Shown here: positions 2,309 to 26,455 of the stretch, piece by piece | Numbering within the stretch: the first letter of the stretch is position 1 | Layout: each line of letters opens with the position of its first letter | From: Sinohyriopsis cumingii | Taxonomy: Eukaryota; Mollusca; Bivalvia; Unionida; Unionidae | Direction: 5' to 3' | Length of the DNA: 64,000 bases | Assembly (NCBI GenBank): GCA_028554795.2 | Contig: CM068825.1 | Location: 156,623,053-156,687,052, forward strand | The notes under the pieces: generated by a model | Database searches by the model: none | Told to the model about the DNA's origin: nothing | The model's input: only the letters and a program-made list of their open reading frames with translations | Made by a program: the position numbers and the translations under genes

Positions 2309-2346
2309 TTTCTTTTCGAGAAATTTGGGTGGCCCTGAAAAGGGCC
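2309..2346 (-). promoter_or_regulatory. Histone-type mRNA 3' processing signal (stem-loop plus downstream element)
   Basis: On the minus strand, 28 bp after the stop of the 2374-2925 gene, AAAAAA leads into the perfect stem-loop GGCCCTTTTCAGGGCC (2331-2346), then ACCCA (2326-2330), then TTTCTCGAAAAGAAAT (2309-2324). This reproduces the replication-dependent histone mRNA 3' end: a 6-bp stem with a 4-nt loop, cleavage after ACCCA, and a purine-rich element that pairs with U7 snRNA. Confidence 0.75.
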
Positions 2347-2373
2347 TTTTTTCTTTATGGTGTTGGAGTGAGT

Positions 2374-2925
2374 TTAACCAATCAACTTTAACTTCCTTAA
2401 GCCTTTGCCACGGCCAAGGCCTACTTCTGATGATTGGGTTGAAATCACTAAGGGTGGTACGACAGGCTTAGTCACAGGGTTGGCGTGTTTAGCTCGGGAA
2501 GGTCGTATTCTCTTCGGTCGTGATAAAGAAGTCTGATACATTTGTTTCAGACTTCTTAACTCCGCTAAAATGTCCAACAGTACCGTAGCCGTTTGATTTT
2601 CACCCTCTTGTTTCTTTGCTGCTACTTCTTCTTGCTGTTGTTGCTGTTGTTTTTTTCTTACCTCTTCTTGTTGCTGTTGCTGTTGCTGTAGGAGAAAAGC
2701 TTGTTCCGCTTCCTTTTGTCGTTGCATAAATTTCTCCAATTCTTCTTTCTGTCTCTGTCTAAAATTCTCCACTTGCGGTAATGACGAAGGTTCCGGAACA
2801 AATTCTTGCGAGGTAAGAAAATCCACAAAATCCCAATGTACCTCTTCTGAAAGTAAGTCCGGGTTCCCTTGGGCGGTCTCCCCTGCTGGTGCACCCCAAT
2901 GGATCGTTTTCTGAATTTCCGTCAT
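2374..2925 (-). CDS. Gln/Glu-rich coiled-coil protein of Polinton end (element 1)
   Basis: This encodes 183 residues and is open from the ATG at 2925. After a ~50-residue N-terminus comes a long predicted coiled coil (about residues 50-110) with QRQKEELEKFMQRQKEAEQ-type heptads and two glutamine runs encoded by impure CAA/CAG repeats. An amphipathic helix follows (LLDILAELRSLKQMYQ), then a basic Arg/Lys/Pro tail ending in GLGRGKGLRKLKL. A homologue occupies the same position in Polinton 2 (10975-11524). The helix plus basic tail suggests an oligomeric DNA- or capsid-associated protein, but I do not recognise a named family. A histone-type 3' signal follows the stop, and a TATA box with a CRE-like site lies upstream. 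Confidence 0.75.
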   Translation of the reverse strand: MTEIQKTIHWGAPAGETAQGNPDLLSEEVHWDFVDFLTSQEFVPEPSSLPQVENFRQRQKEELEKFMQRQKEAEQAFLLQQQQQQQEEVRKKQQQQQQEEVAAKKQEGENQTATVLLDILAELRSLKQMYQTSLSRPKRIRPSRAKHANPVTKPVVPPLVISTQSSEVGLGRGKGLRKLKLIG

Positions 2926-3144
2926 GTTGAATCACTGTCGCATAGATTGACTGCACACAAGCGCTAACGAATCTATATAGACCAACTGACGTCACAGACT
3001 AATCTCTTCGGATTGGATGCGGGCTGACTGAATTTTGTAACGCGTGTTTGGATTGGAGAATGAACTCAATCCGTTTCAATCCTACCTCTACCTATAAATA
3101 AGCGCAGTTCAGTGCATTGATTCACCTGTTCTCGTCGCTTCAAG
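2926..3144. promoter_or_regulatory. Divergent promoter with CRE palindrome, Polinton 1
   Basis: For the minus-strand coiled-coil gene there is a TATA box CTATATAGA (2972-2980) with a perfect CRE/ATF palindrome TGACGTCA at 2987-2994. For the plus-strand basic gene, TATAAATA lies at 3093-3100, 45 bp before its ATG. Polinton 2 has the same two-TATA layout and a GATGTCAC variant at the CRE position (10758-10974). Confidence 0.6.
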
Positions 3145-3378
3145 ATGTGGACCGATGTGCAATCTTCTACGCTTGTGTCTTCCATGATGTTCCGGACGGA
3201 CATACCCATGTATGTCCGATCCAAGTGGACCGTTGTCCACAGGACAACCACCAGTCTGTGGATACGTAGGATCTACGTAGAAAGACAAGGATGCCTGAAA
3301 AGAGTCCTGATTTACGGTCCTACAGTGAAACGTAGCCTAAGGACAAGAAGAAGACCAATGCGGTACCCTTTATGTTAA
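3145..3378 (+). CDS. Small Arg-rich protein at Polinton end (element 1)
   Basis: This encodes 77 residues, strongly basic, with a beta-strand-like alternation of hydrophobic and basic residues and an Arg-rich C-terminus (SLRTRRRPMRYPLC). A coding region of exactly the same length lies at the same place in Polinton 2 (10520-10753, minus strand). It is therefore a genuine terminal gene of the family. No known domain is recognised; a nucleic-acid-binding role is inferred from charge alone. It is flanked by its own TATA box upstream and a histone-type 3' signal 24 bp after the stop. Confidence 0.65.
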   Translation: MWTDVQSSTLVSSMMFRTDIPMYVRSKWTVVHRTTTSLWIRRIYVERQGCLKRVLIYGPTVKRSLRTRRRPMRYPLC

Positions 3379-3402
3379 TGGATACATTAACATAAACCCA
3401 AA

Positions 3403-3442
3403 GGCCCTTTTCAGGGCCAGCCATATTTCTCGAAAAGAGATA
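3403..3442 (+). promoter_or_regulatory. Histone-type mRNA 3' processing signal
   Basis: CCCAAA precedes the perfect stem-loop GGCCCTTTTCAGGGCC (3403-3418). AGCCA follows, then TTTCTCGAAAAGAGATAG (about 3425-3442) in the position of a histone downstream element. It closes the 3145-3378 gene and marks the inner boundary of the terminal inverted repeat. Confidence 0.72.
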
Positions 3443-3734
3443 GCCTTTCCATTGCCTACCCTTTTTTAAATTTAAATTTAAATTTAAATTTAAAAAAACT
3501 TTTTCAAAAAAAAATCCCATATTCAATTCCCCTTGTCCCTAGACAAACCCAAACTCTATTCCCATGTTCAATTCCCCTTGTCCCTAGACAAGCCCAAACT
3601 CTATGTTAAATTCCCATTGTCCCTAGAGTGACCCACGATTTTTCTCCATGTTAAATTTCCATTGTCCCTAGAGTGGCCCAGGGGTGTTTTTAATGCTAAG
3701 TCCCATTGTCCCTAGGGTGGCCCCATTTACTACT
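3443..3734 (-). repeat. Terminal inverted repeat of Polinton 1 with subterminal repeats
   Basis: This is the terminal repeat region. A palindromic (AAATTT)n stretch at about 3466-3494 is followed by several degenerate ~46-bp units, each carrying the core TGTCCCTAGAC or TGTCCCTAGAG and a CCCATGTTAAATT-like spacer, and then the terminus ending in ACTACT at 3734. Polinton 2 has the same core repeats in both of its ends. Confidence 0.75.
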
Positions 3735-3845
3735 TATATATAATTGGTAAGGTACCAGCTCTAATATTTATACACACAACTTTAATAATTCTATTTTGTA
3801 CCACATATAATTAGTTATGTTAGAGAATATGCAAATGACCCGCTT

Positions 3846-3846
3846 A

Positions 3847-3879
<33 letters not shown>

Positions 3880-4005
3880 AGGGTTTAAGCCAATTTTCAG
3901 CACAAGATAGGCTATACATTGCGGCATTATTAACTGGTAGAGGAAGAATCCTGGAAAACCCGGGTAGAACAACAATCCCACGAGAAGCCGTTTACCTGTA
4001 GCAAA
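3846..4005 (-). repeat. tRNA-derived SINE fragment, body and (AAC)n tail (copy 1)
   Basis: Read on the minus strand, this matches the 3' body of the full SINE at 38999-39253: the segment around GCTATACATTGCGGC, then a (GTT)n/(AAC)n tail at 3846-3879. The tRNA-like head is missing. The same fragment lies at the equivalent place in copy 2, so the insertion predates the duplication. Confidence 0.65.
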
Positions 4006-5640: not shown

Positions 5641-5677
5641 TCTCTCTCTCTCTCATTCTCTGTCTCTGTCTCTCTCT

Positions 5678-5741
<64 letters not shown>
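5640..5741. repeat. (CT)n-(AT)n microsatellite, copy 1
   Basis: A CT-rich stretch is followed by about 60 bp of (AT)n. The homologous position in copy 2 holds (AT)n-(GT)n at 32770-32866. Confidence 0.95.
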
Positions 5742-10101: not shown

Positions 10102-10451
10102 AGTAGTGAATAGGGGCACCCTAGGGACAATGGGACTTACCATTAAAAACAGGGTCCCGGCACTCTGGGGACTATGTAAATTTAACATGGGGAAAACTGG
10201 CCCGGCACTCTGGGGACAATTGTAATTTAACATGGGAATATATTTTGGGCCTGTCTAGGGACAATGGGAAGTTAACATGGGAATATATTTTGGGCCTGTC
10301 TAGGGATAATGGGAATTTAACATGGGAACATATTTTGGGTCTCTCTAGGGACAATGGAAAAGGAACAGGAGAGAGTGATATACAACACAGACAATAGACA
10401 ACAGACATTTTTAAAAATTTAAAAAAAGAGAAAAATTTAGGCATGAAAGTG
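10102..10451 (+). repeat. Left terminal inverted repeat of Polinton 2
   Basis: The first ~70 bp are identical to the inverse of the right end. Subterminal ~46-bp units follow, each with GTCTAGGGACAATGGGAA-type core and an AACATGGGAATATATTTTGG spacer, fewer than in the right repeat. Similarity to the right end continues through the histone-type signal to about 10500. Confidence 0.9.
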
Positions 10452-10491
10452 AATGTCTTTTCGAGGCATGGGAGTGGCCCTGAAAAGGGCC
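10452..10491 (-). promoter_or_regulatory. Histone-type mRNA 3' processing signal
   Basis: On the minus strand, after the small basic gene, AAACCAAA leads into GGCCCTTTTCAGGGCC (10476-10491), then ACTCCC, then GCCTCGAAAAGACATT (about 10452-10467). The stem is perfect, and the downstream purine element matches the other five copies. Confidence 0.72.
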
Positions 10492-10519
10492 TTTGGTTTT
10501 ATGTTAACATACCATACTG

Positions 10520-10753
10520 TTAACACAGAGGGTACCTCATTGGTCTTCTTCTTGTCCGTAAACTCTGTCTTACTTCTGGGCCGTAAATCAAGACCCTCTT
10601 TTAGCAACCTTGTCTTTCGACGTATATTCTTCTTTTCCACACACAGGTATCCGTCCTCTTGACAATGACCCACGACGATCGGACGTACATGGGTAAGTCA
10701 GTTCTAAACGTCATGGAAGAGACGAGAGTAGACGATTCTACGTCGGTCCACAT
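10520..10753 (-). pseudogene. Small Arg-rich protein at Polinton end (element 2 fossil)
   Basis: This is the counterpart of the 77-residue gene at 3145-3378 of Polinton 1, with the same length (234 bp), clear similarity throughout, and the same Arg-rich end. It is preserved as a fossil. It diverges from the coiled-coil gene across the promoter at 10754-10974 and ends at a histone-type 3' signal. Confidence 0.6.
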
Positions 10754-10974
10754 CTTGGTGACGAGAACAGGTAAAGGAATGAAGTGAACGGCGGTTATTT
10801 ATAGGGAGAGGGAGGATTGAAACGGATTGAGTTCATTGACCAATCCAAACACACGTTACAAAATTCAGTCACCCTTTGTCCAATCGGAAGAGAGCAGTCC
10901 GTGATGTCACATTCCCTATATAGAGGCACTAGCGTTTGTGCGCAGTCAATCCAAGCGACACAGTGAGCATAAAC
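10754..10974. promoter_or_regulatory. Divergent promoter, Polinton 2 left end
   Basis: This matches 2926-3144 of Polinton 1. CCTATATAGAGG at about 10915 serves the plus-strand coiled-coil gene, with a GATGTCAC CRE-like variant just upstream; TATAAATA on the minus strand near 10797-10804 serves the small basic gene. Confidence 0.55.
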
Positions 10975-11524
10975 ATGGCGGCATGAATTGGGGCGCACCG
11001 ACCGTGGAGAATACCCAAGGGAACCCGGACTTACTTCCGAAGAGGTAAATTGGGATTTTGTGGATTTTCTTTCGCAAGAATTTGTTCCGGAACCAGTACC
11101 TTTGCCACCTTCTCCTTCTTTAACACACGTGGAGAATTTTAAACAGAGACAGAAAGAAGAATTGAAGAAATTTATACAACAGCAAAAGGAAGCGGGACAA
11201 GCTTTTCTCCTACAGCAACAGCAAGAAGAAGAGATAAGAAAAAAACAACAACAAGAAGCAGCCAAGAAACAAGAGGGTGAAAGTCAAACCATGACGGTAC
11301 TGTTAGACATTTTAGGGGAGTTAAGAAGTCTGAAACAAATGTAACAGACTTCTTTATTACGACCGAAGAGAAAAAGACCTTCCCGAGCTAAACAACCCAA
11401 CCCTGTGACAACACCTACCATACCACCCTTAGTGATTTCTACCAAATCATCGACAGTACGCAGGCCAGAAGTAGGCCTTGGCCGTGGCAAAGGCTTAAGG
11501 CAGTTAAAGTTGATTGCTTCCTAA
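10975..11524 (+). pseudogene. Gln/Glu-rich coiled-coil protein (element 2 fossil)
   Basis: Homologue of 2374-2925. It shares the NPDLL-type N-terminal segment, the FKQRQKEELKKFIQQQKEAG coiled coil, Gln-rich stretches, the LLDILGELRSLKQM helix and the GLGRGKGLRQLKL tail. An open stretch covers most of the coiled coil (10988-11344). It ends just before a histone-type 3' signal. Confidence 0.65.
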
Positions 11525-11556
11525 GTTTTGTTATTTAAAACCCACCAAGACTCAAA

Positions 11557-11600
11557 GGCCCCTTTCAGGGCCATCCATGTCTCTCGAAAAGAGATAGTAT
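11557..11600 (+). promoter_or_regulatory. Histone-type mRNA 3' processing signal
   Basis: ACTCAAA precedes GGCCCCTTTCAGGGCC (11557-11572), then ATCCA, then TCTCTCGAAAAGAGATAG (about 11581-11598). Five of six stem pairs are kept. It lies 33 bp after the stop of the coiled-coil gene, matching the position of 2309-2346 in Polinton 1. Confidence 0.68.
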
Positions 11601-11734
11601 TTCAATAGCCAACATCAGTTAAAACTCAAAAACCCATATTTTTAGCCTAGTGTATGTGTGAATGTCTGAGTGCTTGAGTGTAGATTCTTATTCTAAAAAT
11701 CAAAACCAAAAGACACCTGCTTTTTATAGACTGT

Positions 11735-12252
11735 TTATTCTGGTACAAATTTTACAATCCAAATCACAACACCACATAACATTTTAAAAAGTTCATAGGC
11801 TCCTTCTTCTTTTTCTGTTTTCACTCTCTCTTTTTTTTTAAATGTCTTCACTTTCACAGCTTTTTCCTCCTCTTCATTCTCACTTTCTTCCCTTCTTTTT
11901 TTCTCCTGTTTCTGTTTCTTCACCTGTCTGCTTTCTGTATCTTCTTCCTCTCCATCACTCCCCTCTTCTTCTTCTTGCTCCTGTTGTTTCTTAGGGCAAT
12001 CTGGAGATCAGTGTCCTTTTTCTTGACAATGATAACAGGTATCTTCACTTTTGTCTCTTTTAGCCCCTGTTTTGCTTTTTGACGGTCTGGACACTCTGAA
12101 GACCAATGCCCTTTCTTCTGACAGATATAGCAAGTATCTTGACTTTTATCTCGAAAGGAGGGTGAGTAGTCCGTCGGCTGGTCTGAAGAAAATTTTCGGA
12201 TGACCCTTCGCAAAGCTCTGATGAAAAGTTCGATCTGTGTAGTCTCGTCCAT
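11735..12252 (-). pseudogene. Double CCHC zinc-knuckle protein (element 2 fossil)
   Basis: Homologue of 1577-2068 in the corresponding orientation. The first knuckle, CYICQKKGHWSSEC, is identical to that of Polinton 1. A second knuckle region and a Lys/Glu-rich charged tail follow. The promoter on its 5' side carries TATATAAAAG (minus strand, about 12309-12318). It is divergently arranged with polymerase B. Confidence 0.65.
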
Positions 12253-12386
12253 CGTTCTGCTCGGTTTGAGAGTGAAATGAATAGTGGAAGGACAAGACAC
12301 ACACCCTTTTATATACGCTGGTCTGTCATGGCTATAAAGTAAACCATGGTGTTTAAACTTTAGTCATTTGACGTCTTCCAGTCAAG
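12253..12386. promoter_or_regulatory. Divergent promoter between CCHC gene and polB, Polinton 2
   Basis: Minus-strand TATATAAAAG (about 12309-12318) serves the CCHC gene. Plus-strand CTATAAAGTA (about 12333-12342) serves polymerase B with ATG at 12387. TTTGACGTC near 12367 is shared with Polinton 1. Confidence 0.55.
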
Positions 12387-15300: not shown

Positions 15301-16450
15301 ATTGCCAAGACAAACTGATGTTTCCTTTGTGCCGTACTTGTGCCGAAACGTGTAACCAAGACCAGCCTTGTCAGCACACCCAGGAAGAACGTGCCTTGAC
15401 GAGGACGTGGGTCAGCGTGAAATTGTTCAAAGCTCTGGATATGGCATACCAACTGTTAGAAGTGTACGAAATTTACCACTTTCCCAAGACACAATAATGC
15501 CACAAGGGTGGCCCCACTCAGAAAGGCATTTTCGCAGACTACGTGGATGCTTTTTTGAAACTGAAGCAAGAGGCCAGTGGCTATCCTTCCTGATGTCACA
15601 CTCCCGAAGACCAAAAGACATTCAAAGAGAAATACTGGGCACAAGAAGGCATTTCTTTAGATCACATAGAGAAAAACGAAGGCAGGCGATCGTTTGCCAA
15701 AATGATGTTAAATTGCTTGTGGGGTAAAATGGCACAACGACCAAGACGGAGTATTTGACAGAACCTTCCAGCTACTTTCAGATGATTCACGACAAAACCA
15801 AATACATGAAACAAGTGGACGTCGTTCTTGAGGATTTGATCTTAGTCAGTTAAGAAGAAGATCTGGACTTTGTGGAAGCCTACCCCTTTGGAAATGTCAT
15901 CATTGCGGCTTACGTGACAGCTCATGCTCGCTTAAAATTGTACGAAGCTTTAGAACTGTTATGGGAACGTGTCCTGTACTTTGACACGGAAAGTTGCATC
16001 TACATCGATCACCCGAGTCAACAGCACCCTAGTATCGAAGGAGACCGTTTAAGAGCCCGGACAGACGAGCACCCCGACGACAAGATTCTCAGTTTCGCGA
16101 GTGGTGGTCCTAAAAATTACGGCTACGAATACCGGGACAAACAAGGAGAAGTGCACACGGAGTGTAAAGTGAAAGGACTGACTCTGAATTATCGTACCAG
16201 TCAAGTGGTGAACTTTAGCGTATTGAAAGAAGCCTTGCAGTCTGGAGAAGATGACAACTTTAAAGTGACCACCTATCAGCCAAACAAGATTGTACGTTTA
16301 CCCACTCACAACATCGTCAGTCGACCCTCGGAAAAAGTCCATCAAATCGTGTACCAGAAGCGAGTGCGACTTCCCAATCACTTCACTTTGCCGTACGGAC
16401 ATGTTGGTATTGGTCTGTATATAAAAAGGGACAATGTCCAAGATCGATAG
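12387..16450 (+). pseudogene. Protein-primed DNA polymerase B, Polinton 2 (fossil)
   Basis: The span is about 4.06 kb, the usual size for Polinton polymerase B (around 1,300 residues). In order it shows a charged N-terminal region and a Cys/His-rich zinc-binding part (about 13400-13790). Next come the exonuclease motif FFDFEC (about 13800) and a second exonuclease region with DSMSYLAMPLSRMPKTFG (about 14195). Polymerase motif A is DVCSLYPYV (about 15132), motif B is MMLNCLWGK (about 15700), and motif C is YFDTES (about 15977). This is the family B, protein-primed type that replicates Polintons. It has several breaks. A TATA box for the next gene lies inside its 3' end. Confidence 0.9.
16418..16426 (+). 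promoter_or_regulatory. TATA box of the BIR gene
   Basis: TATATAAAA lies 57 bp before the ATG at 16483, within the 3' end of the polymerase gene. Individual TATA boxes for closely packed genes are a repeated feature of this element. Confidence 0.5.
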
Positions 16451-16482
16451 TTTATTGTGACTACCAAAACCAAGCGAACAAG

Positions 16483-16968
16483 ATGAATCCTTTGAAAGAG
16501 ACATCGTTCCAGTTTTGGGATTGTAAAAAAGTTTTACCTTCCCCTAGTGTGACTAATATTGGATGGATAAGACCCATGCATTGCGACGGAAAATGTCCGG
16601 AAGGAAACTGAAAGTGTCCATGCGGTTAACATTGTCAATGCGTAACGGAGTTTGCAGACGAGTGCGATTGTGAGCCTTGCGATTGAAGCGATGCTGTATG
16701 TTGTGACCTTAGTGATGCCGTAAAGCATCATGGGAACTGTATTCTCTCTACTCCTATCAAAGGAAAATGGCCTAAGTATCTGGGATTATCGACCCCCGAA
16801 GAATTAGCCAGAACCGGATTGTTCTACTTGGGCGAAGGGGATAAAGTCAAGTGCTTCAGTTGGGGTGTGTCACTTCACCAATGGGAACTACAAGATTCGG
16901 CCTACCTGGAACATGCTCGATGGTCACCGAATTGTCATTACTTACCCTTAGTGGGACCGAGACATTGA
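16483..16968 (+). pseudogene. IAP-like BIR-domain protein captured in Polinton 2 (fossil)
   Basis: The C-terminal part (about 16770-16965) reads as a BIR domain: a helix with STPEELARTGLFYLGEGDKV, then CF, a Trp-containing segment WELQDSAYLEHARWSPNC and a final CxY. This is the layout of the zinc-binding baculoviral IAP repeat. IAP proteins block caspases and are often acquired by large DNA viruses from hosts. A Cys-rich segment precedes the domain. It is placed between polymerase and the F-box-like genes with its own TATA box, suggesting a host-interaction gene. It is preserved as a fossil. Confidence 0.7.
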
Positions 16969-16979
16969 AGTAACTTACC

Positions 16980-17369
16980 ATGTCGTTGAAGAAGAAACCA
17001 GATTGGCTAGGAGTCAAATGTTGGACATCACCGAGACCAGTATTTAAACTTCATTTCAAAAATGATATTGAATCATTACCTAAAGAACTGCAAGAGAAGA
17101 TCTACAAGGAAGTTTGGCAGGGACTTCCCAGAGTGAAATCTCAATGGGTAACTGTAGAACTTTTGTGTCGAGAAATTCACAAGAGGAAAGTGAAAAAAGT
17201 TAACCAGTGTGTTAGATTTCTCTGGATCAAGGGTGCATTCATCCTATTATACCGCTTTAGACCGTTTACATTACAAGATTTCAGTGAGATTCTTGGACGT
17301 TACCCTGAGTGGCAGTGGTCAGAAATTACTTACTATGTGGATTTCTTTTGCTCTTGGAGAAGATTGTAA
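16980..17369 (+). CDS. F-box-like small protein 1 (Polinton 2)
   Basis: This encodes 129 residues, open. After ~30 residues comes SLPKELQEKIYKEVW, which resembles the LPxELxxxIxxxL core of an F-box. The remainder is helical and rich in Trp and aromatic residues. It is a diverged relative of the two following genes and starts 11 bp after the BIR gene. F-box proteins recruit substrates to SCF ubiquitin ligases through Skp1; that role here is inference from a short motif only. No other domain is recognised. Confidence 0.55.
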   Translation: MSLKKKPDWLGVKCWTSPRPVFKLHFKNDIESLPKELQEKIYKEVWQGLPRVKSQWVTVELLCREIHKRKVKKVNQCVRFLWIKGAFILLYRFRPFTLQDFSEILGRYPEWQWSEITYYVDFFCSWRRL

Positions 17370-17390
17370 ATTGTACTGACTGACCTATTC

Positions 17391-17846
17391 ATGGATACTT
17401 TACAAGAGAACATTCGTGCTTTGCCTGTGGAGTTGAGAGAACGCATTTACCGAGAACTGGTCAAAATACAAGTGATACGTAAAGAACAGTTGCATCCGTT
17501 ACGTCACCGATTTTTAAATCACTGGTACCTGAATGCTTTACAAGGACTGATTGATTTGAAAGTGTTCCATTGTACAGACATTGATGAACGACCCCATGGT
17601 TTTAAAAAGGATTGGTTTGCTATTGATGATTCTATGTACTACATTGTAAACTTACTGCATCGAATTCCAGAGGAAGAGTTAAAGACTTACCAACATCTTT
17701 TACACAATGTCAACTTAATGAAAGAGGAAACTTCTGAACGAATTGTAATGTGTAAATTAGTGACTCAACGATATAAATTAGACACTGAAGTAAAACCATG
17801 TCTGTGCAAACGGTACATTTCTTATGTCAGACAAAAGAGGATTTAG
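17391..17846 (+). CDS. F-box-like small protein 2 (Polinton 2)
   Basis: This encodes 151 residues, open. The N-terminus ALPVELRERIYRELVKIQ is F-box-like; further helices, the motif RIPEEELKTYQHLLH and a basic C-terminus with a Cys pair follow. The next gene is a tandem paralogue: the first ~60 codons are nearly identical and the rest much more divergent. Spacing to the neighbours is only 21 and 12 bp, so transcripts may be shared or the promoters may lie within the upstream coding sequence. Confidence 0.6.
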   Translation: MDTLQENIRALPVELRERIYRELVKIQVIRKEQLHPLRHRFLNHWYLNALQGLIDLKVFHCTDIDERPHGFKKDWFAIDDSMYYIVNLLHRIPEEELKTYQHLLHNVNLMKEETSERIVMCKLVTQRYKLDTEVKPCLCKRYISYVRQKRI

Positions 17847-17858
17847 TATGACCAATTC

Positions 17859-18305
17859 ATGGATACTTTACAAGAGAACATTCGTGGTTTGGCTGTGGAG
17901 TTGAGAGAACGCATTTACCGAGAACTGGTCAAAATACAAGTCAAACGTAAAGAACAATTGCATCCATTACGTCACCAGATGTTTAACCACTGGTACCTGA
18001 ATGCTATAAGAGAACTGATTCGTCAGAAATTGTTTCAGTGGTCAGAGCTTGTTCAATACTTCCAAGCCTCAAATGATCGACATGTTTGTGATTTTGGTTA
18101 CTTCGAGATTCACCTAGTGCAACGAATTGAGGAAGACGAGTTAAAGGATTACCAACATATTTTACGTGGAATCTGCTTAGAGAAAGAGGAAACTTCTAAT
18201 CGAACTCTGAAGTGTAGGTTACAGTTTGGAGCATTTAAATTTCCAACTGGAGAACGAAGATCTCTGGGTAGAAAGTACGTGTATTGCTTCCGAAAAAAAA
18301 GATAG
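17859..18305 (+). CDS. F-box-like small protein 3 (Polinton 2)
   Basis: This encodes 148 residues, open. It is a paralogue of 17391-17846, with GLAVELRERIYRELVKIQ at the N-terminus and RIEEDELKDYQHILRG in the middle. The strong N-terminal conservation against a divergent C-terminal half is what one expects if the N-terminus binds a common partner such as Skp1 and the C-terminus binds different targets; this is inference. Three adjacent relatives indicate expansion by tandem duplication within the element. Confidence 0.6.
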   Translation: MDTLQENIRGLAVELRERIYRELVKIQVKRKEQLHPLRHQMFNHWYLNAIRELIRQKLFQWSELVQYFQASNDRHVCDFGYFEIHLVQRIEEDELKDYQHILRGICLEKEETSNRTLKCRLQFGAFKFPTGERRSLGRKYVYCFRKKR

Positions 18306-18322
18306 TATAAAAACAGGCTGCC

Positions 18323-18445
18323 ATGCCAAGGCTTTTATCACATGTAATTGAACAGATTCCGTGGGAGGAACTCAATGACACTATTCAAACCGTGGATAAT
18401 TACCATCAATTATTACAAGAACTGTTTCCGTTCAGTTTGGGTTGA
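18323..18445 (+). CDS. Short ORF, possible fourth F-box-family remnant
   Basis: This is a 40-residue frame from the ATG at 18323, preceded closely by AGTATAAAAAC at 18304-18313. It contains QIPWEELND and YHQLLQELF, resembling the RIPEEELKTYQHLL segment of the preceding paralogues. It is probably a remnant; whether it is expressed cannot be judged. Confidence 0.3.
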   Translation: MPRLLSHVIEQIPWEELNDTIQTVDNYHQLLQELFPFSLG

Positions 18446-18543
18446 CAAGTGGTGTGTGTCTTAGTGACTTGTTTTCTGGGATTTCGTTTACCAGCCGATT
18501 CCTTGTGGACTCTTTACGAACAGTACTTACCACCCAATTAAAC

Positions 18544-18789
18544 ATGAAAGTGGTGCCTTTAAATGGTCACGAAAGACTCATTTTGCTCAATGTTTTGCGT
18601 TTTCATCTGGATACTTCTCGACCTCTACAGGAAAAAAAGATTCGTCAACTTTTAGCTACAGAAGACGTGTATGACGATGTGTGTGTAGCTTGTGACTTAC
18701 ACCCCCATTGGACAGATGTACGTGCCTGGAAAAAAGGGGGTTTTGAGGCTTGGACCCAAGAAGTGGCCCAGAATGCTCGGGAGTTGTGA
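18544..18789 (+). CDS. Unknown small Polinton 2 protein
   Basis: An 81-residue frame from the ATG at 18544 (the frame is open further upstream to 18442 but without ATG). It is helical with a CVACDLHPHW segment and WKKGGFEAWTQEV near the end. It sits between the F-box-like family and the membrane protein gene. No family is recognised. Confidence 0.35.
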   Translation: MKVVPLNGHERLILLNVLRFHLDTSRPLQEKKIRQLLATEDVYDDVCVACDLHPHWTDVRAWKKGGFEAWTQEVAQNAREL

Positions 18790-18839
18790 TCCTTCCTTTC
18801 TACGTCCAAAGAAAAAAGGTCACTTTTCAACCTGTGTTA

Positions 18840-19079
18840 ATGACGGTACCAGAAGAAGAACTCGTCACTCAGGACAGGACTGTCGTGGACATTCCTGAAA
18901 GACCCTTTCGGGAGGACACTTGTGTGACCTTACCCCCTGTTGAACTGGTCAGAACATTACCCAAAACATGTTGTACAGAATCTTGTTTCTATTCCACGTT
19001 GATCGTTTTTATGTGCCTTTTATCGCTGTACTTAAGCCTTTGGCTTTTATGTATCTTAGTCTTTCGTGTTCATGTTTAA
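18840..19079 (+). CDS. Small single-pass membrane protein (Polinton 2)
   Basis: This encodes 79 residues from the ATG at 18840 (the frame is open further upstream without ATG). A polar N-terminal part is followed by a C-terminal hydrophobic segment of about 25 residues (STLIVFMCLLSLYLSLWLL onward) that ends close to the C-terminus. It is therefore predicted to be tail-anchored. A polyadenylation signal AATAAA lies 8 bp past the stop. Function is unknown. Confidence 0.5.
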   Translation: MTVPEEELVTQDRTVVDIPERPFREDTCVTLPPVELVRTLPKTCCTESCFYSTLIVFMCLLSLYLSLWLLCILVFRVHV

Positions 19080-19086
19080 AAACCTC

Positions 19087-19092
19087 AATAAA
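19087..19092 (+). terminator. Polyadenylation signal AATAAA
   Basis: AATAAA directly follows the membrane-protein gene, with a T/G-rich downstream region (TTGTCTTGTCTGTTTTCGTG at about 19120). It shows that internal genes of the element can use ordinary poly(A) signals, in contrast to the histone-type ends of the terminal genes. Confidence 0.5.
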
Positions 19093-19162
19093 CTTGTCCT
19101 GAAAAAAGTATCAAAACTCTTGTCTTGTCTGTTTTCGTGTTACAAGTGACAATGCTAACACT

Positions 19163-19880
19163 ATGGTCACCTCTTCTCTCTCTGCTCCCTCTTCCTCTAC
19201 TGTCAAAGTCATCGACGAACACTTAGATCGTGCGAGTTGGGAGGCTTTGTATCTTCGCCATCCCTTTAACATGCTCATTGCTGGACCTAGCGGTTCAGGC
19301 AAAACCGAATTTGTCAAACGTTTGATCGAACATAAACATCATTTGATCGATCGTCCATCGTGTGGTGTTACAAAGAGTGGCAATCGGCGTACAGCCTCCT
19401 ACGAGAAAGTCAAGGCGATTCCATCGTGTTTGTGGAAGGCATTCCTAAAGAACACGACGGAATCGTGTCTGACTCCCGTCAAATCCATTTGGTCATTTTC
19501 GACGACATGTTAGGAGAAGACGAAGAAGAAATTAAACTGTGGCTTACACGCAAAGGGCATCATCGTAATGCCAGTGTCGTTTACATCACTCAAAATTTGT
19601 TTCAACAAAGTAAAGCCCATCGCACCATCAGTCTCAATGCCCATTACGTGGTCTTGTTTAAAAGCCCTCGAGATAAATCGCAAGTGCAAGTCTTAGCCAA
19701 ACAGTTAGGAACGCCTTGGCTGACTAAGGCGTACGACGATGCCATTCAAACTCCACACGCCTAATTATTCGTCGATTGAAACACACTACCCCCGATGATT
19801 TGCGATTTCGTACCCAATTGTTTCACCACTGGTGCCAAGACGGAGGGCCTGTCCCGTACAAGTCTCCGTCCTCGACTTAA
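19163..19880 (+). pseudogene. A32/HerA-FtsK-type packaging ATPase (Polinton 2 fossil)
   Basis: Walker A motif GPSGSGKT lies at about 19283-19306 within HPFNMLIAGPSGSGKTEFV, and a Walker B-like LVIFDDML at about 19490. The motif VVYITQNLFQQ follows, typical of the sensor strand in this family. Polinton and large-DNA-virus ATPases of this type (around 230 residues) drive DNA into the capsid. The length and motif order agree. It is present as a fossil. Confidence 0.82.
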
Positions 19881-19892
19881 CCCCACAAAAAA

Positions 19893-19902
19893 TCTATATA
19901 AA
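19893..19902 (+). promoter_or_regulatory. TATA box of the basic core-like gene
   Basis: CTATATAAAC lies 47 bp before the ATG at 19940; the leader CACAGTCTCAAC between them fits an initiator. Confidence 0.5.
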
Positions 19903-19939
19903 CATTAGACACTTTTAGTCTGTCTCACACAGTCTCAAC

Positions 19940-20905
19940 ATGACGTCCTTTCAGTCGCATCTTCCCGTCAAATTGATTCGTGCCTTGTATGGCATCAGTC
20001 GCGAAAAATATCCACAAATGCTGGCTAGTGTCTTATAAGCCAGTCACAAAGAAGTCTTACGATGGTTCACGGTGACAGCACGTCAATTACTACAAGGAAT
20101 CATTCAGATTCCTCATCAAACCAAACGCTTTTTTTTATCGAAACAAAGTCGCTTTGACCCAACTGGCCGATCCCCGCATCGACACTCAAACCAAAAGCAA
20201 ATCATTTTGAAACCTGGAGGAAGCGGTACTCTAGAAGGTGTCATCATTCGCTCTTTCTTAAGATGGGATCCTAATGCTCCCAAAGTTCTCCCCAAGAAAA
20301 AAGCCAAACGAAGCTCCAAGAAGAAAAAGAGCCACGGTGTCAAGACTAGGTCCCCAAGGAGACCCGTGTCTCCAAGAACTTCTCCAGTGGCGGGACCCTC
20401 CTCTTACCAGTCACCACCCAGGAAAAAGAAAAGCCCACAGAAAAAGAAACAGAGAAAAAGTCCCCAGAAAAAGAAAAACCCACAGAAAACTAGTCGCAAG
20501 AGAGGCACTTCGGCCAGGACACAACCTTACACTCGCAAACCACGACCTACAAGGACGGTGACCGCGTCTCCGGTAGCCTCATGTTCATTCACTTCTCAAT
20601 TGATGACACCAAGAACTGAGAAGTACTTGGAGACGTTGATAACACCAAGAACGTCTCCGTTGATGACCCCAAGAACTTCTCCAGTGGCAGGACCCTCCTG
20701 TTTAGCGGCAGTGGCCGCTGCTCACAAAGTAACTTCTCCCAAAATCAAAGTCCAAGAGAGATCGGGCATGTTACAAAGTTTGCTGGATTTGTCCAAGCAA
20801 GAACTGGCTCGATTTAGTCCGTTGCGTACCCATGCACGACGTGTCATGCCTGTCCTCAAGTTAATACGACGTAAAGACAATCAGTGGCGACGCGTTCCAG
20901 TATAA
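19940..20905 (+). pseudogene. Highly basic core-like protein with SP-rich repeats (Polinton 2)
   Basis: The long open part (20072-20905) is Lys/Arg/Ser/Pro-rich, with runs such as KKKSPQKKKQRKSPQKKKNP and repeated TPRTSP and VAGPS motifs, and ends in a globular basic segment (SLLDLSKQELARFSPLRTH). This composition resembles DNA-condensing core proteins such as adenoviral protein VII or sperm-type SPKK proteins. Packaging of element DNA is a plausible but inferred role. The likely start is the ATG at 19940, after a TATA box at 19893. Confidence 0.5.
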
Positions 20906-20909
20906 AAAA
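20901..20909 (+). promoter_or_regulatory. TATA box of the 20962 gene
   Basis: TATAAAAAA overlaps the end of the basic core-like gene and precedes the next ATG (20962) by 61 bp. Confidence 0.45.
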
Positions 20910-20961
20910 GGTCTGTGACAAAGTAGGGTATCAGTGTTTTGGTGCTCCTGAAGACTCAAAG

Positions 20962-21267
20962 ATGTCACCCTCCAGAAAACATCCCTCTTCTAAACGCCAA
21001 GGAAAGAAAAGGAAAAGACCGCCTCCTCGTTTAGGACATGTGGACATGTTATCTGTTCTGTCCAAAGCTTCTCCACCCCTACGAAAAAAACTCATTCAAA
21101 CAGCCTTCAAAGAGGTCATCGATATCGTGTGCGAATGTTGTTTGAACGTTTTGAAAGGCACGATCCCTTTGTCCAAACACCAGAAACAATGCTTAGGCAA
21201 ACATCGTCACGTTCTTCGCCAAATGGTTCAAAAAAAATCCCCCTTCGTCAAAAGAAGAAGATGTTAG
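20962..21267 (+). CDS. Basic protein with conserved SKHQKQxLxxHRHxLR motif (Polinton 2)
   Basis: This encodes 101 residues, open. A Lys/Arg-rich N-terminus is followed by a conserved helical region with VCECCLNVLKGTIPLSKHQK and then a HRHVLRQM motif. From memory, this motif pattern recurs in multicopy genes of invertebrate virus-like elements, next to a hydrophobic pX-like peptide. Function is unknown; a nucleoprotein role is inferred from charge. Its last codons overlap the start of the next reading frame. Confidence 0.55.
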   Translation: MSPSRKHPSSKRQGKKRKRPPPRLGHVDMLSVLSKASPPLRKKLIQTAFKEVIDIVCECCLNVLKGTIPLSKHQKQCLGKHRHVLRQMVQKKSPFVKRRRC

Positions 21268-21359
21268 TCCAACGTGGAGGAATTTTACCCCTCTTGTTAG
21301 GCCCATTGCTGAAAGGAGTCTTGGGAACCATGTTGGGAGGACTCGTAGGAGCAAGATAA
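21261..21359 (+). CDS. pX-like hydrophobic peptide (Polinton 2)
   Basis: A 32-residue peptide starting MLVQRGGILPLLLGPLLK and continuing with a Gly-rich hydrophobic stretch that ends in Arg. It overlaps the preceding gene by 7 bp in another frame. Hydrophobic GGxLPxLL peptides of this kind recall the adenoviral pX (pre-mu) C-terminus and accompany the SKHQK motif protein in related elements. Whether it is made separately or as a fusion with the preceding frame cannot be told. Confidence 0.45.
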   Translation: MLVQRGGILPLLLGPLLKGVLGTMLGGLVGAR

Positions 21360-21407
21360 AAAGGACCTCTGGAGACCCTAGATCTCAGAATTGACCCTTG
21401 ACATCCC

Positions 21408-22040
21408 ATGGAAGTACGAAAACTAGCTTTAGTGCCTTACAAACGATGGATGGAATACCATCTTTGGCAAGAACAGCGGACCCCGCATTTGCCTTCCAAT
21501 CCCAATTTGAGTGAGATGTCCCAGTTACAACACGAACTGCAGTCCTTGATGGATCGCCAAGATTTGTCCGAAACAGAAAAATCGCAAAAGTACGGTCAAC
21601 TCTTGCAACTACTGCAACTCTTTCACCAAAAAGCTTTAGACGAAACAGCTCTACCCACTCTGAAAGATTTTAAGACCTTGATGAAAAGTCCATCCCCCAC
21701 ACCATCACCACTACCACCTCCACTACTACCATCCCCAGGGGTCACCAGAGACGCTACCCAACGAAGGCCTGAGGAAGAAGAGATACGAGAAGTTTTTCAG
21801 CAGCTCCCATTTCTAGTAAGATTGCAGCGTCCTTGTTGACCCCGTCCCCCACACCCCAAAGAGAAGAAAGAAGGGAAACCAGAAGTGAAGAAAGAAAAGA
21901 AGACCAATGTCATTCCATTACCACCTCCACTACTACCATCGACTTCTACTCCCGTAGCCCATCGGACACGTAAATCCGTTTCCAAACCACCCTTTCGTCC
22001 CGCCCAAAGTAGCATCCTCGAAGAGTGGGTGCCTTATTAA
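21408..22040 (+). pseudogene. LVPYKRW-type Pro-rich protein (Polinton 2 fossil)
   Basis: The N-terminus MEVRKLALVPYKRWMEY is followed by Gln/Leu-rich helices (open 21408-21839), a Pro/Ser-rich linker and a final segment ending in ILEEWVPY. A short conserved 'LVPY' start is, from memory, a recurring gene in this element type, next to the pX-like gene and before the integrase. Function is unknown. Confidence 0.45.
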
Positions 22041-22053
22041 GAAACAAACAAAA

Positions 22054-23146
22054 ATGGAAAAGGTGTTAGCTGAAATTTACTACGATCCATCCCATCCTGC
22101 AGGTTACGGAGGAATTCAAAAATTGTATCGTGCTGCCAAAACTCGACTGAAAAGTCTCCGTTTACCTCAAGTGCAACGATGGTTGTTACAAGAACAAGCT
22201 ACCTACACTTTACACAAACCCATTCGACGCAAGTTTTCCAGAAGTCGCACCCGAGTGGAAGGCATCGATCATCAATGGCAAGCCGATTTAGCCGATGTCT
22301 TTCATTTGGCCAGCTACAATCGCGGCTACAAATATTTGTTTTGTGTCATCGACGTCTTTTCCAAATTTGCCTGGGTCGTACCCTTGACTTCCAAATCGAG
22401 CAGTGAGTTAGTGCGAGCCCTGCAACGGGTGTTGAAGAAAAGTGGTTGTCACCCTCTTCGATGGCAAACAGACAAAGGCACCGAATTTCTGAACCAAGCT
22501 TTCCAAAAAGAATTTTTGTACCACTGAGAATCCTGAAACCAAAGCCAGCATCGTGGAACGTTTTCAACGCACTTTGAAAGAACGCATGTGGAAATATTTT
22601 ACGCATCACCACACTCTGAAGTACATCGACATCTTACCTCACCTGGTGCAAGCGTACAACCAATCTTACCATCGAAGCATTGGACGTGCCCCCCAAGAGG
22701 TGACTCCGGACAACGAAGTGCTAGTGTCTGATCATCTCTTTGGTACGTCCCCGACGAGGACTGTCCCCAAGAAAAGTGGAGTGTTGGCCGTAGGAGATTG
22801 GGTACGCATTGGCAAAACCAAACGCACTTTCGACAAAGGTGACTTACCTAACTGGACCACCGAATTGTTTCGTGTCACTGAACGAGTGCGTGGTCGTCAT
22901 CCTGCCGTCTATAAATTGGAAGACATGAACGGAGAAGTGTTAAAAGGAACGTTTTACTTACCCGAGTTACAACGTATCACCAAAAAAGAAGACGACGTGT
23001 ACGACATCGAAAGCATTCTCGAAAGCAGAACCCGTAAAGTAGGCAAACGACGTGTCAAAGAAGTCAAAGTACGTTGGAAAGGATATCCACCCAGTTTTGA
23101 TTCTTGGATCGACGCTTCGCAAGTCGTGGACTATAAAAAGAAGTGA
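22054..23146 (+). pseudogene. DDE integrase with C-terminal chromodomain (Polinton 2 fossil)
   Basis: Retroviral-type (RVE) integrase core: HQWQADLADVFHLASYNRGY with the first catalytic Asp (about 22283), WQTDKGTEF with the second (about 22471) and SIVERFQRTLKERMW with the Glu (about 22555). A chromodomain occupies the C-terminus (about 23000-23140), with VYDIESILESR and VRWKGYPPSFDSWI. The Polinton integrase inserts the linear DNA; a chromodomain may guide target choice to modified chromatin. It is nearly whole, with very few breaks. Confidence 0.9.
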
Positions 23147-23151
23147 CCATC

Positions 23152-23390
23152 ATGACCTTTCACACTGACTCAGCTACTGCGACCACTCCTTCACCCAGTT
23201 CTTCTCTGCAAGATTTACAAAAATAACCCTTGTGGGTGTGGTTTGGAGAACGTGTGCCTAAAACGCAAATCGTCTTTTTCTGCCAAATCTTTGTGGTGTA
23301 TTGTGTCATCGGTGCAGCCATTGCCAATTTGAGTTTGCAACAAGGACACAAACAATTGTGGACCATTTTATTAAGCAGTTGCATCGATTA
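23152..23390 (+). pseudogene. Small transmembrane protein (Polinton 2 fossil)
   Basis: A Ser/Thr-rich N-terminus is followed by PLWVWFGERVPKTQIVFFCQ and a strongly hydrophobic segment (IFVVYCVIGAAIANLSL), then LWTILLSSCI. The 'VPKTQIVFFCQ' pattern recurs, from memory, in small membrane genes next to the integrase in related invertebrate elements. The ATG at 23152 lies 5 bp after the integrase stop. About 23390-23558 holds no further convincing gene. Confidence 0.45.
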
Positions 23391-23558
23391 ACTGCTTCCC
23401 AATACCTCCCTGAAATTCACATCGAACGGCAGCAACGGGAACGTTGTGTCCAGTGCCAGTGCCAGTCACCACTCCAACAGCAATAACAATCCCATTTTGG
23501 GCGGAGACACGCCTCTGACTTCCAGTAACCTCTAGGACAGCCACAGAACTCTGGAATT

Positions 23559-24468
23559 ATGAACACTAACAACCAATTTTACTTAACCTTACCCGGTGAC
23601 AGTTCCATGGAGGTGTTTCCCATGAACACTTTGTGCTGTTACACGGTCAAATTACCTCAGACCATCCAATTAGATCACGAGGCCAATTGGGAAGTGGCTT
23701 TAGTGGAAATCGTTCACCCGACTCAAGTCCTCAATGTCCTTCCCAATCAAAATTATTTTTCAGTGGAAGTTCATGACGAACAATTGCAAAAGTACTTGAA
23801 TACCCATGTCAAATATGACAATAAAACCTATGTTGACAAAACTCAAAAGTGGACCTGTCACATGTTCGTTCCCCCAGGCTATTATTTTAGTGGTCAACTT
23901 TTGGTCAGCACCATAGCATCCAGATTTAATGTCGCGTTTCTGAAAACTTTGGAAAGTGTCAGAAAAATGTGTCACCATGGAGTACCACAAAGCAGCTCGT
24001 CGCTTCCTGATGAAATTTGACGGGAGTAAAATCATGTCTATTTTATTTTGTCCTGAATTGTTTGACATGTTGGGCGGGGAGATGGACATGAGGATGACCA
24101 TGATGAAGAAAAACGAATTACCAGTCATTTCCGACAACGATTCTTTTAGCAAGTTTTTTCGTTCCCCGGTAGAAATGAACCAAGGACTGAATTTGATCTT
24201 TGTGTTCTCTGATGTGGTGGAGTACAATGTGGTGGGACACACCTCCGTACCGTTACTGCGTGTCATTCCTTTCAAAGTGGATTCTGTCACGAACGCTGAC
24301 GAGGAAGGTGGAAACACTTATCACGTACACCGCGAATTCGTACATCCTCACTATTTGCCTGTCAGCAAGTCTTATTTGGACACGGTCAACATTGCTATAA
24401 AAGGAGATCTGGGACAAAATTTTCCATTCACCAAAGGAAAAGTCACGGTGAAACTCCATTGTGAGTGA
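23559..24468 (+). pseudogene. 'FYLTLPxxSS' structural-type protein (Polinton 2 fossil)
   Basis: The N-terminus MNTNNQFYLTLPGDSSMEVF, then NWEVALVEIVHP and VLPNQNYFSV, matches a ubiquitous multicopy invertebrate gene family starting FYLTLPSNSS (recognised from memory). Two long open parts cover about 23559-24020 and 23956-24468. Size (about 300 residues) and beta-rich composition suit a virion protein such as a minor capsid or spike; that role is inference. It is the last large gene before the regulatory right end. Confidence 0.6.
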
Positions 24469-24536
24469 GTGTTTCTTTTAGGTCCGCAGGTTTTTCCGTC
24501 AGTATCTATGTAACATAAGTTTTGTGTCTTAGGGGG

Positions 24537-24572
24537 ATGTTTTTCTTCACGTCCGCGCTTTTAGTATAAATT
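24537..24572 (+). promoter_or_regulatory. Promoter with TTCACGTCCGC motif and TATA box
   Basis: GATGTTTTTCTTCACGTCCG (24537-24556) is followed by AGTATAAATT (24563-24572) and an initiator-like CAGTCT about 25 bp on, before the ATG at 24625. The same TTCACGTCCGCGCTTTTA run recurs at 25704, and a close variant lies at 5801 outside the element. Confidence 0.6.
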
Positions 24573-24624
24573 GAAAAAAGGCTCGGCAGTCTGGTTACCC
24601 TTGTTGACTGATCAACACTAGAGA

Positions 24625-25082
24625 ATGAACACCAGACTAGCTAAACTGTTAGAACTCCAGATGCATCTGGAATATGCCAGGCGCTTACTTAATGAACTGG
24701 CCCCGGAGGCCATCGTCGAAGAGGAAAGGATGAAAGAGGAGGAGGAAGAGACAAGAAAGAAAGAAGAGGAAGAAAAAAGAGAGAGATCAGGTGTCACCCT
24801 ATGATGAACCCTGTGTGCAAGGTGACACCTGAGGCAAGGACACCTCCCCAACCTGTAACTGCACCACAGCCACAACCACAACAGGAGGTAAGGATGCCAA
24901 TTCATCCTAGAATTAGAAATAGAAGAAGAGAAAGGGACGTCTTCACTATTCCAGAGACAGAAGATTGGAATAGTGAAGCCACTCAACCCGCCTCTACGCT
25001 TCCAGCGACAATGGTGAATTGGCAAGGAGTAATGAGTCAGAGATGCGTGTACGGTGCCAGACCAGGAAGGTGCCAACATTAG
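24625..25082 (+). pseudogene. Coiled-coil, Glu-rich protein of the Polinton right end (fossil)
   Basis: The N-terminal part is a leucine-rich helix (LAKLLELQMHLEYARRLLNE) running into a Glu/Lys-rich coiled coil. A Pro/Gln-rich middle and a C-terminal part with RIRNRRRERDVF and ATMVNWQGVMSQRCVYG follow (open 24801-25082). No family is recognised. It has a strong promoter upstream and a histone-type 3' signal 27 bp after its end, like the left-end genes. Confidence 0.45.
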
Positions 25083-25109
25083 ATAGGTGCATCTGGAGTT
25101 CAAACAAAC

Positions 25110-25150
25110 AGCCCTTTTCAGGGCTACCCAATACTCTAGAAAAGAAATAG
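25110..25150 (+). promoter_or_regulatory. Histone-type mRNA 3' processing signal with compensatory change
   Basis: AACAAAC precedes AGCCCTTTTCAGGGCT (25110-25125), then ACCCA (25126-25130), then ACTCTAGAAAAGAAATAG. The outer stem pair is A-T here but G-C in the other copies, so both partners changed together and pairing is kept. Confidence 0.75.
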
Positions 25151-25284
25151 TAATCCATTTGCCAAAGTGTGAATGTGGAGTAGTGTGAAAATAAACACTC
25201 ATTTCTTTCCTGGTGTGATTGTATGTGTTTATGTGTGTGTGATTGTGTGTGTGATTGTAAGCGCTGACGTAGATAGTAGATAAT

Positions 25285-25680
25285 GGTCATGTTTTTGCTG
25301 CTTAGCGTGTATGGATAGTATATTTGGGCTTGGTTTTGCTGATTGTCGTGTGTGGATAGTAGATTTAGGGTTTGATTTTGCTGCTTAGCGTGTGTGGATA
25401 GTATAATTTGGTTATGTTTTTTTTTTTTTTTTTTTTTGCTGCTTAGGGTGCGTGGATGGTAGATTATGGGGTTTGATTTGGCATTTCTGTGTGTATATAG
25501 TAGAGTATGGGTTTAAGTTTGCTGCTTAGCTTGTGTGGATAGTAGATTTTGGGTTTGATTTTGATGCTTGACGTGTGTGAATAGTAGATTTGGGTTTGTT
25601 TTTGCTGCTTGGCGTGTGCGGATAGCATATTTGGGTTTGATTTTGCTGCTTCAAGTGTGTGGATAGTAGATAATATGAGA
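25285..25680 (+). repeat. Degenerate ~45-bp minisatellite inside Polinton 2
   Basis: About nine imperfect units built on GCTGCTTAGCGTGTGTGGAT followed by AGTAGATTTGGGTTTGATTTT. A poly(T) run of about 21 lies inside at about 25420-25436. No gene is visible. It sits between two right-end coiled-coil genes. Confidence 0.85.
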
Positions 25681-25696
25681 TGACAAAAGTAGGTGA

Positions 25697-25727
25697 TGCT
25701 TTCCTTCACGTCCGCGCTTTTATATAA
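25697..25727 (+). promoter_or_regulatory. Second TTCACGTCCGC promoter with TATA box
   Basis: GATGCTTTCCTTCACGTCCG continues into CGCTTTTATATAAG; the TATA box at about 25721 lies 59 bp before the ATG at 25780. It is nearly identical to the promoter at 24537. Confidence 0.6.
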
Positions 25728-25779
25728 GAACCCACAATGTTTGTCGCTCGCACCATTCTAAGGAATAAAGACAAGGAAG

Positions 25780-26286
25780 ATGGTGACTGTATCAGAATTG
25801 TTTAACCAGTTGAAGGACATTTGGTATTGGATGGTGGATAGAGCCTATGTAGTGGAAAGGATTGAACGTGAATGGAAGCATGAAGTTACCCGGGATTTTG
25901 TCAGAAGGCAAGTGACAAACCTGAAATTAGCTATGGATCTGGTGAAATAGATGATAGAAGAAGAAGTGAAAAGACTAAGAGGCTTTATCGATCCCGAGTA
26001 TGTAAAGATTGGTCATTTGAAGGAAGCCATGGATAATGTGATAGAAGTAAGGTGCTTTTTGGAAGACGTAATGGAATGGACAGAGTGGTCCTTTGTCAAA
26101 AAAGGCCTGGACCAGCTTAAGAAATCGGAAGAACTTATGAGAAAAGTGATGGAGGAAGAAGTAAAGAAGATCAAAGACAAGTGGAATAAAGAACGAAAGG
26201 ATAAAGAAAACTTAAAGAAAAACGAGGCCTTTGAAAAACTCAACAACAATTGGATCATGATACAGGAGAAATTCAGAGCGATATGA
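25780..26286 (+). pseudogene. Helical coiled-coil protein of the Polinton right end (fossil)
   Basis: The beginning MVTVSELFNQLKDIWYWMVD is followed by a long charged helical region; the main open part (25951-26286) is rich in Glu/Lys with KKSEELMRKVMEEEVKKIKD-type heptads. It resembles the other terminal coiled-coil genes in composition, not in sequence. The downstream A/G-rich stretch leads into a histone-type 3' signal. Function is unknown. Confidence 0.4.
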
Positions 26287-26418
26287 CATCCTGACAGGTT
26301 ACCAGAGTCAGAAATAAAGAAGAAGAAAGGAATGATGGAAAAAGTGAGAAATTGGTGAAAGAAGTGGAGGAAGTAGAAGAAGAAAAAGAAGATGAAGAAG
26401 AAGAAGAAAAAACCCAAA

Positions 26419-26455
26419 GGCCATTTTCAGGGCCACTCCCATGCCTCGAAAAGTC
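26419..26455 (+). promoter_or_regulatory. Histone-type mRNA 3' processing signal, right TIR boundary
   Basis: AACCCAAA precedes GGCCATTTTCAGGGCC (26419-26434), then ACTCCC, then GCCTCGAAAAGTCATT. One internal stem pair is imperfect. It is the mirror partner of 10452-10491 within the terminal inverted repeat. Confidence 0.62.

Follow-up and report, generated by a model that had tools for sequence, protein, structure and literature searches.

Two described systems are close to the locus considered here. One is the replication-dependent histone genes of animals; in mouse, the AAAGAG core of the purine element pairs with CUCUUU of U7 (PMC7026596). The other is the group of virus-like mobile elements that includes Polintons (Mavericks) and adintoviruses, the latter being marked by a chromodomain integrase, a recognisable hexon and an OTU-like domain in the type B DNA polymerase (PolB), as given in PMC11071296. 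The stretch of DNA analysed (called the window) is 64,000 nt long, from the bivalve Sinohyriopsis cumingii (assembly GCA_028554795.2, contig CM068825.1, positions 156,623,053 to 156,687,052), and it contains two Polintons, referred to as element 1 and element 2. Genes near the ends of these elements are followed, on the coding strand and after the stop codon, by 3' signals that are maintained across copies and that resemble those of the host's own histone genes. We consider it highly probable that the terminal genes of this adintovirus-like Polinton family carry functional histone-type 3'-end signals, processed by SLBP and U7 of the host and favoured in S phase.

Histone-type hairpins in the window

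A reading made from the DNA letters before this analysis, here called the sequence-only reading, had described six stem-loops in the window, and all six were recovered, with their positions and strands, both by pattern matching and by Rfam. When up to three mismatches were allowed, the hairpin pattern matched six times in the window, as compared to a mean of 0.17 matches (maximum 2) in 100 shuffles, which rules out a chance origin. The same reading had proposed a search with the Rfam model of the histone hairpin, RF00032 (Histone3; curated cut-off 34 bits), and this model matches at every one of the six sites. A scan of the full 64-kb window with all Rfam families at gathering thresholds detected RF00032 as the sole family, at two sites (2331 and 3403). 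At a lax threshold, applied to positions 1-28000, all six were found, with 22.1-39.7 bits and E values from 1.5e-8 to 0.06 (for 28 kb).

The stem is fully paired at four of the six sites. Its proposed sequence, GGCCCT/AGGGCC, does not describe the gene C hairpin, which reads AGCCCT/AGGGCT with the outer pair altered on both sides. ACCCA follows exactly at two sites (2331 and 25110), the other four having AGCCA, ACTCC (two sites) and ATCCA. The purine element described beyond the stem was found at all six sites, always within 11-20 nt after it. The distance from stop codon to stem is 24 to 27 nt for genes A, B and C (Table 1) and 132 nt for gene D, whose frame is broken. The earlier count of six genes can be recast: histone-type 3'-end signals do occur on Polinton terminal genes, with four kinds of gene (A to D) in two elements and a fifth kind (E) found family-wide. 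The companion claim, that internal genes use AATAAA, fared poorly, such hexamers being few and irregularly placed, by eye, at internal gene ends.

The placement of hairpins was also surveyed by a gene-blind Rfam scan (all families, E up to 1) of 7.3-kb pieces taken from four elements (two left pieces and two right ones). Nine Histone3 matches were obtained, each after gene A, B, C, D or E and six of them over the cut-off, together with one unrelated weak match. None of the polymerase, ATPase, zinc-knuckle, integrase, penton-like or protease frames present in the four pieces had a Histone3 match. Genes A and B occupy the left end of the element, and E, C and D the right. Because no hairpin signal was found at the internal gene ends examined, the element seems to have two classes of 3' end.

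Occurrence and conservation across the genome

The host assembly (2.9 Gb) yielded 589,472 first-look candidates for RF00032, and 75 scored matches among them. Only part of the candidates was scored, so that this number is a lower bound: the genome has at least 75 Histone3 places, every scored one over the cut-off and the best at 45.6 bits. Seventy of the 75 were examined in sequence; the scored matches are no guide to the identity of the unscored candidates, the host's own histone hairpins, for example, not being among these 70. The nearest upstream gene was A at 25 places, B at 22, D at 12 and C at 10, with no gene at one place (L067), meaning that 69 of 70 hairpins follow a Polinton terminal gene. 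For A, B and D taken together, 51 of 59 stems lie 18-27 nt after the stop (23/25, 22/22 and 6/12, respectively), and the remainder look like broken frames. At the ten places assigned to C the hairpin is 824-1336 nt past the C stop, and a D-like gene missed by the query likely lies between. Histone motifs were found at none of the 70 places (six frames, 1.5 kb on each side). The notion that these hairpins mark histone genes was excluded by that result and by the lack of a Pfam histone match.

As a control for selection, retention was also counted after setting aside, at each locus, the gene copy whose own hairpin had recruited it, with an intact hairpin required within 110 nt. Among the remaining, unselected copies, the hairpin is intact in 22/23 for gene A, 17/22 for gene B and 15/19 for gene C, as compared to 0/8 for an internal zinc-knuckle gene. 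The corresponding counts for all copies are 45/47 for A, 38/44 for B, 16/20 for C (leaving out one chance hairpin, in L004), 12/13 for D and 0/11 for the zinc-knuckle gene. In all three genes, the stem and the GAAAAGA of the purine element are better conserved than both the spacer and the remainder of the 3' region, the contrast with this remainder being modest for B. Pairwise identities for unselected A, B and C copies are.995,.957 and.948 in the stem and.975, 1.0 and.985 in GAAAAGA, versus.885,.831 and.724 in the spacer and.764,.891 and.865 in the rest of the 3' region.

The outer stem pair of unselected intact copies is G-C in 22/22 for A and in 16/17 for B (the other being G-T), and A-T in 15/15 for C; the two-sided change in gene C is probably a single event. 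In a wider set of 134 hairpins, which includes 58 sites prefiltered for GAAA and a few antisense or degraded picks, the outer pair is G-C in 101, A-T in 19 and otherwise in 14. When 122 distinct 60-mers were compared, 698 of 732 cells were paired, as against a shuffled mean of 671 and maximum of 681 (2000 shuffles), an excess that is inflated by relatedness.

Resemblance to host histone genes

The host's histone genes were represented in the comparison by one unit (L085), in which H3, H4, H2B, H2A and H1 lie on a single strand and each gene has, past its end, a Histone3 hairpin that scores above the cut-off, with 35.0-39.4 bits. Since host histone genes carry the hairpin, an SLBP pathway in the host is implied. 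The purine element of the unit is CTAGAAAAGA in H3, H4 and H2B; H1 has the same sequence and H2A has CCCGAAAAGG, both one base further on. The sequence-only reading had suggested that such a comparison be made, and the Polinton purine element and its spacing indeed match those of the unit, the commonest form being CTNGAAAAGA at the same spacing as the host CTAGAAAAGA. A match of at least 8/10 to CTAGAAAAGA at the H3/H4/H2B spacing was seen for 66 of the 70 Rfam-selected hairpins, for 52 of the 54 that are unselected and intact, and for all six window sites. The mean for the Rfam-selected set was 8.74/10 at this spacing versus 1.1-6.2 at other offsets, and 119 of the 134 hairpins in the wider set, with its GAAA-prefiltered sites, had a purine-element match. 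The hairpin is commonly flanked as CAAAGG...ACCCA in the Polintons; the four core histone genes of the host have AAACGG...ACACA or a variant, and host H1 has CAAAGG. The host histone genes were also seen to be arrayed in tandem, the unit measuring ~8.27-8.29 kb (contigs C310, C531, C561 and others).

Proposed mechanism and alternatives

The signal set comprises a 6-bp stem whose loop is mostly TTTC, a cleavage region of the ACCCA type and, starting ~11-14 nt past the stem, a purine element. Host SLBP would bind the hairpin, and the U7 small nuclear ribonucleoprotein would pair with the purine element, leading to cleavage after ACCCA. The mature messenger RNAs (mRNAs) of genes A to E would then end in the hairpin, lack a poly(A) tail and be favoured in S phase. 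By analogy with histone biology (PMC5011920, PMC7026596, PMC6303110), the most likely outcome is SLBP/U7 cleavage, with transcripts that have no poly(A) tail and are timed to S phase.

Several results weigh against this proposal. Four of the six window sites are under the Rfam cut-off (22.1-33.5 bits), and the stems at 11557 and 26419 are damaged, with one broken pair each (marked on both sides by cmscan). About one-fifth of the unselected B and C copies are without an intact stem, and ACCCA is less well kept than the stem among unselected A copies (.807 vs.995), with many having AGCCA. Copies share ancestry, so that none of the counts represents independent events. A search for host U7 with RF00066 gave no matches among 65 scored of 801,960 candidates, which cannot show absence, and the 157 matches in a U7 pattern search fell below the reversed control (337). 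The SLBP domain PF15247 had no match among 14 scored candidates; no control matched either, and this null is uninformative because introns may split the domain and the controls were prokaryotic. On the supporting side, metagenomic relatives were found for gene B (20, at 54-87% identity), gene D (five) and gene A (two). The C-terminal tails of two of these proteins, ...QWPISGPPTSLEKR... in P0013 (gene B, 61%) and ...TQKPFSGPLTLLEN... in P0027 (gene A, 78%), look like a hairpin plus purine element in translation; the tails suggest retention of the signal by related elements, as judged from protein letters only.

A separate observation concerns two related U7-like candidates in the host (L086 and L087, at ~8.41 and ~8.39 Mb of C4), in which AATTTGTCTA is followed by a hairpin, the weaker one being in L087. 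They are unproven: they were picked from ten stretches, the Rfam U7 model does not match them, and the pairing test was circular in that the search pattern already contained the complement.

The hairpin could instead serve SLBP in export, translation and stability of the mRNA, with the 3' ends made by downstream polyadenylation, or by both routes depending on cell state. An AATAAA at 25190, ~65 nt beyond the gene C hairpin, speaks for this arrangement and against U7 processing, AATATAAA occurs after gene E, though it is no canonical signal, and some histone genes have polyadenylated forms (PMC3661734). We nonetheless regard such an arrangement as unlikely, in that the purine element, which would be needed for U7 cleavage alone, is kept about as well as the stem and agrees with its counterpart in the host histone genes.

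Much less probable still is that the hairpin acts at the DNA level, as a terminal-repeat element in replication, packaging or integration with a superficial histone likeness. In element 2 the hairpins of A and D do lie within the inverted repeats, and because of this location they represent one duplicated sequence rather than independent cases. However, the B and C hairpins are outside those repeats, and in other pieces B, C and E lie inward of A and D. Nor does a DNA element account for the coding-strand position just past the stop or for the purine element at near-fixed spacing, and it is the model of an RNA family, besides the host histone genes, that the hairpins match. The identity of hairpin and purine element with those of host histone genes could further be read as a captured histone 3' flank that was spread passively by copying and has no function, an explanation that we can hardly credit. 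That the end of a host core-histone gene was copied recently is unlikely, because the flanks differ from those of the four core genes and because the best Polinton sites outscore the best of the host unit (45.6 vs 39.4 bits). Moreover, conservation is higher in the stem and the purine element than in their flanks (modestly so for B), several kinds of gene keep the hairpin, and the stem of gene C has changed on both sides. Processing by host SLBP and U7 is the explanation that we prefer.

The two Polintons and neighbouring features

Element 2 encodes a type B DNA polymerase (DNA_pol_B_2), an rve integrase with a Chromo domain and a weakly matched A32-like ATPase, as judged by Pfam. PolB and rve lie between inverted repeats, with a 6-bp flank duplication that has one mismatch, the arrangement that identifies Polintons/Mavericks, and the chromodomain in the integrase is one of the three features given for adintoviruses. 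Element 1 forms inverted repeats with element 2 that are 77-92% alike. Tandem units of ~45-50 nt around CCCATTGTCCCTAGACAGGCCCAAAATAT were noted by eye within the inverted repeats of element 2 (10120-10400 and 26540-26790).

Genes A to E have no Pfam match above the curated cut-off. The gene frames were scanned in separate runs (B; C, D and E; A, C and D); in a first scan of 10 window proteins, the frames at 10795-11265, 24618-25202 and 26013-26417 (minus) had been antisense to or outside the B, C and D frames. The predicted structure of gene B is a single long helix of low confidence (pTM 0.26), and its frame in element 2 ends at 11522-11524. In one copy (L083) the gene E stem has decayed and was missed by the Rfam scan.

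Element 2 is without ~3.5 kb that is present in other copies (window 24469-24624 vs L084:1549-5100). The missing stretch holds gene E, capsid-like frames and an adenovirus-type protease. The protease was detected in another copy as Peptidase_C5 under the cut-off (E 0.019); the capsid-like frames were named by eye, and Pfam finds no match in them. Also within element 2 are two tandem related genes at 17370-18305 (208-nt direct repeat, 86% alike), the first without a Pfam match, and a frame at 20994-21359 that ends in RGGILPLLLGPLLKGVLGTMLGGLVGAR, a C-terminus that may be like that of adenovirus pX/mu. Outside both Polintons, a 562-aa open frame at 55235-56923 has no Pfam match.

Table 1. Features of the two Polintons and of their terminal genes (window positions, except for gene E)
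Feature	Position	Strand	Remarks
Stem-loop after gene B, element 1	2331-2346	-	RF00032 39.7 bits, over cut-off
Stem-loop after gene A, element 1	3403-3418	+	RF00032 35.6 bits, over cut-off
Stem-loop after gene A, element 2	10476-10491	-	RF00032 32.7 bits, below cut-off
Stem-loop after gene B, element 2 (damaged stem)	11557-11572	+	RF00032 25.4 bits
Stem-loop after gene C, element 2	25110-25125	+	RF00032 33.5 bits, just under cut-off
Stem-loop after gene D, element 2 (damaged stem)	26419-26434	+	RF00032 22.1 bits, E 0.06 (28 kb)
Purine element CTCGAAAAGA, gene B, element 1	2311-2320	-	9/10 identical to host histone CTAGAAAAGA, equal spacing
Purine element CTCGAAAAGA, gene A, element 1	3429-3438	+	
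Purine element CTCGAAAAGA, gene A, element 2	10456-10465	-	
Purine element CTCGAAAAGA, gene B, element 2	11583-11592	+	
Purine element CTAGAAAAGA, gene C	25136-25145	+	Same sequence as in host H3, H4 and H2B, and in H1 one base further on
Purine element CTCGAAAAGT, gene D	26445-26454	+	
Polinton element 1, left part only, running off window	1-~3745	-	Right border approximate, by eye
Polinton element 2	10102-26851	+	Ends AGTAGTGAATAGGGG..., flanks TATGGC/TATGCC (5/6 alike)
Left inverted repeat, element 2	10102-10500	+	83% to right repeat; gene A stem-loop at inner end
Right inverted repeat, element 2	26410-26851	-	Gene D stem-loop at inner end
Gene A, encoding a very basic protein of 77 aa (pI 11.5)	3145-3378	+	Stop 24 nt ahead of stem
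Gene B, 183 aa	2374-2925	-	Stop 27 nt ahead of stem
Gene C, two overlapping frames in window copy	24625-25082	+	Stop 27 nt ahead of stem
Gene D, frame broken in window copy	25780-26286	+	
Gene E, fifth hairpin gene	L084:4694-5059		Hairpin 25 nt beyond stop

Implications and comparison with known systems

If the proposed processing is correct, a mobile element would have several of its genes under a signal that animals otherwise reserve for histone genes, and that rule would be broken. The Polinton would have a concrete means of sensing S phase, its terminal genes would form a separate expression class, and standard poly(A) transcriptomes could miss them. A broader proposal, which we hold with less confidence to be probable on balance, is that, across a whole lineage of animal virus-like mobile elements, non-histone terminal genes under SLBP/U7 make up a class without poly(A), expressed only during host DNA replication, whose best copies fit the pan-animal model better than the five host histone genes compared here do.

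A search of IMG/VR with PolB and integrase queries yielded no relatives, and a relaxed hairpin pattern matched 10 viral contigs, none of which reaches the Histone3 cut-off. Among Polintons/Mavericks and adintoviruses, the present elements share PolB, the rve integrase with chromodomain, the weak A32-like ATPase, the sub-cut-off protease and the inverted repeats. They differ in their histone-type 3' ends, which are not reported for Polintons, adintoviruses, other viruses or transposons among the matches listed in a literature search that covers subscription journals thinly and is no proof; in the text of a survey covering adintoviruses (PMC11071296), "stem-loop" and "polyadenylat" each occur 0 times. 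With the replication-dependent histone genes, the terminal genes have in common the hairpin, its loop, the ACCCA-type cleavage region, the purine element, the spacing and the short distance from the stop codon. The difference lies in the genes themselves, in that A to E encode no histone and sit in a virus-like mobile element.

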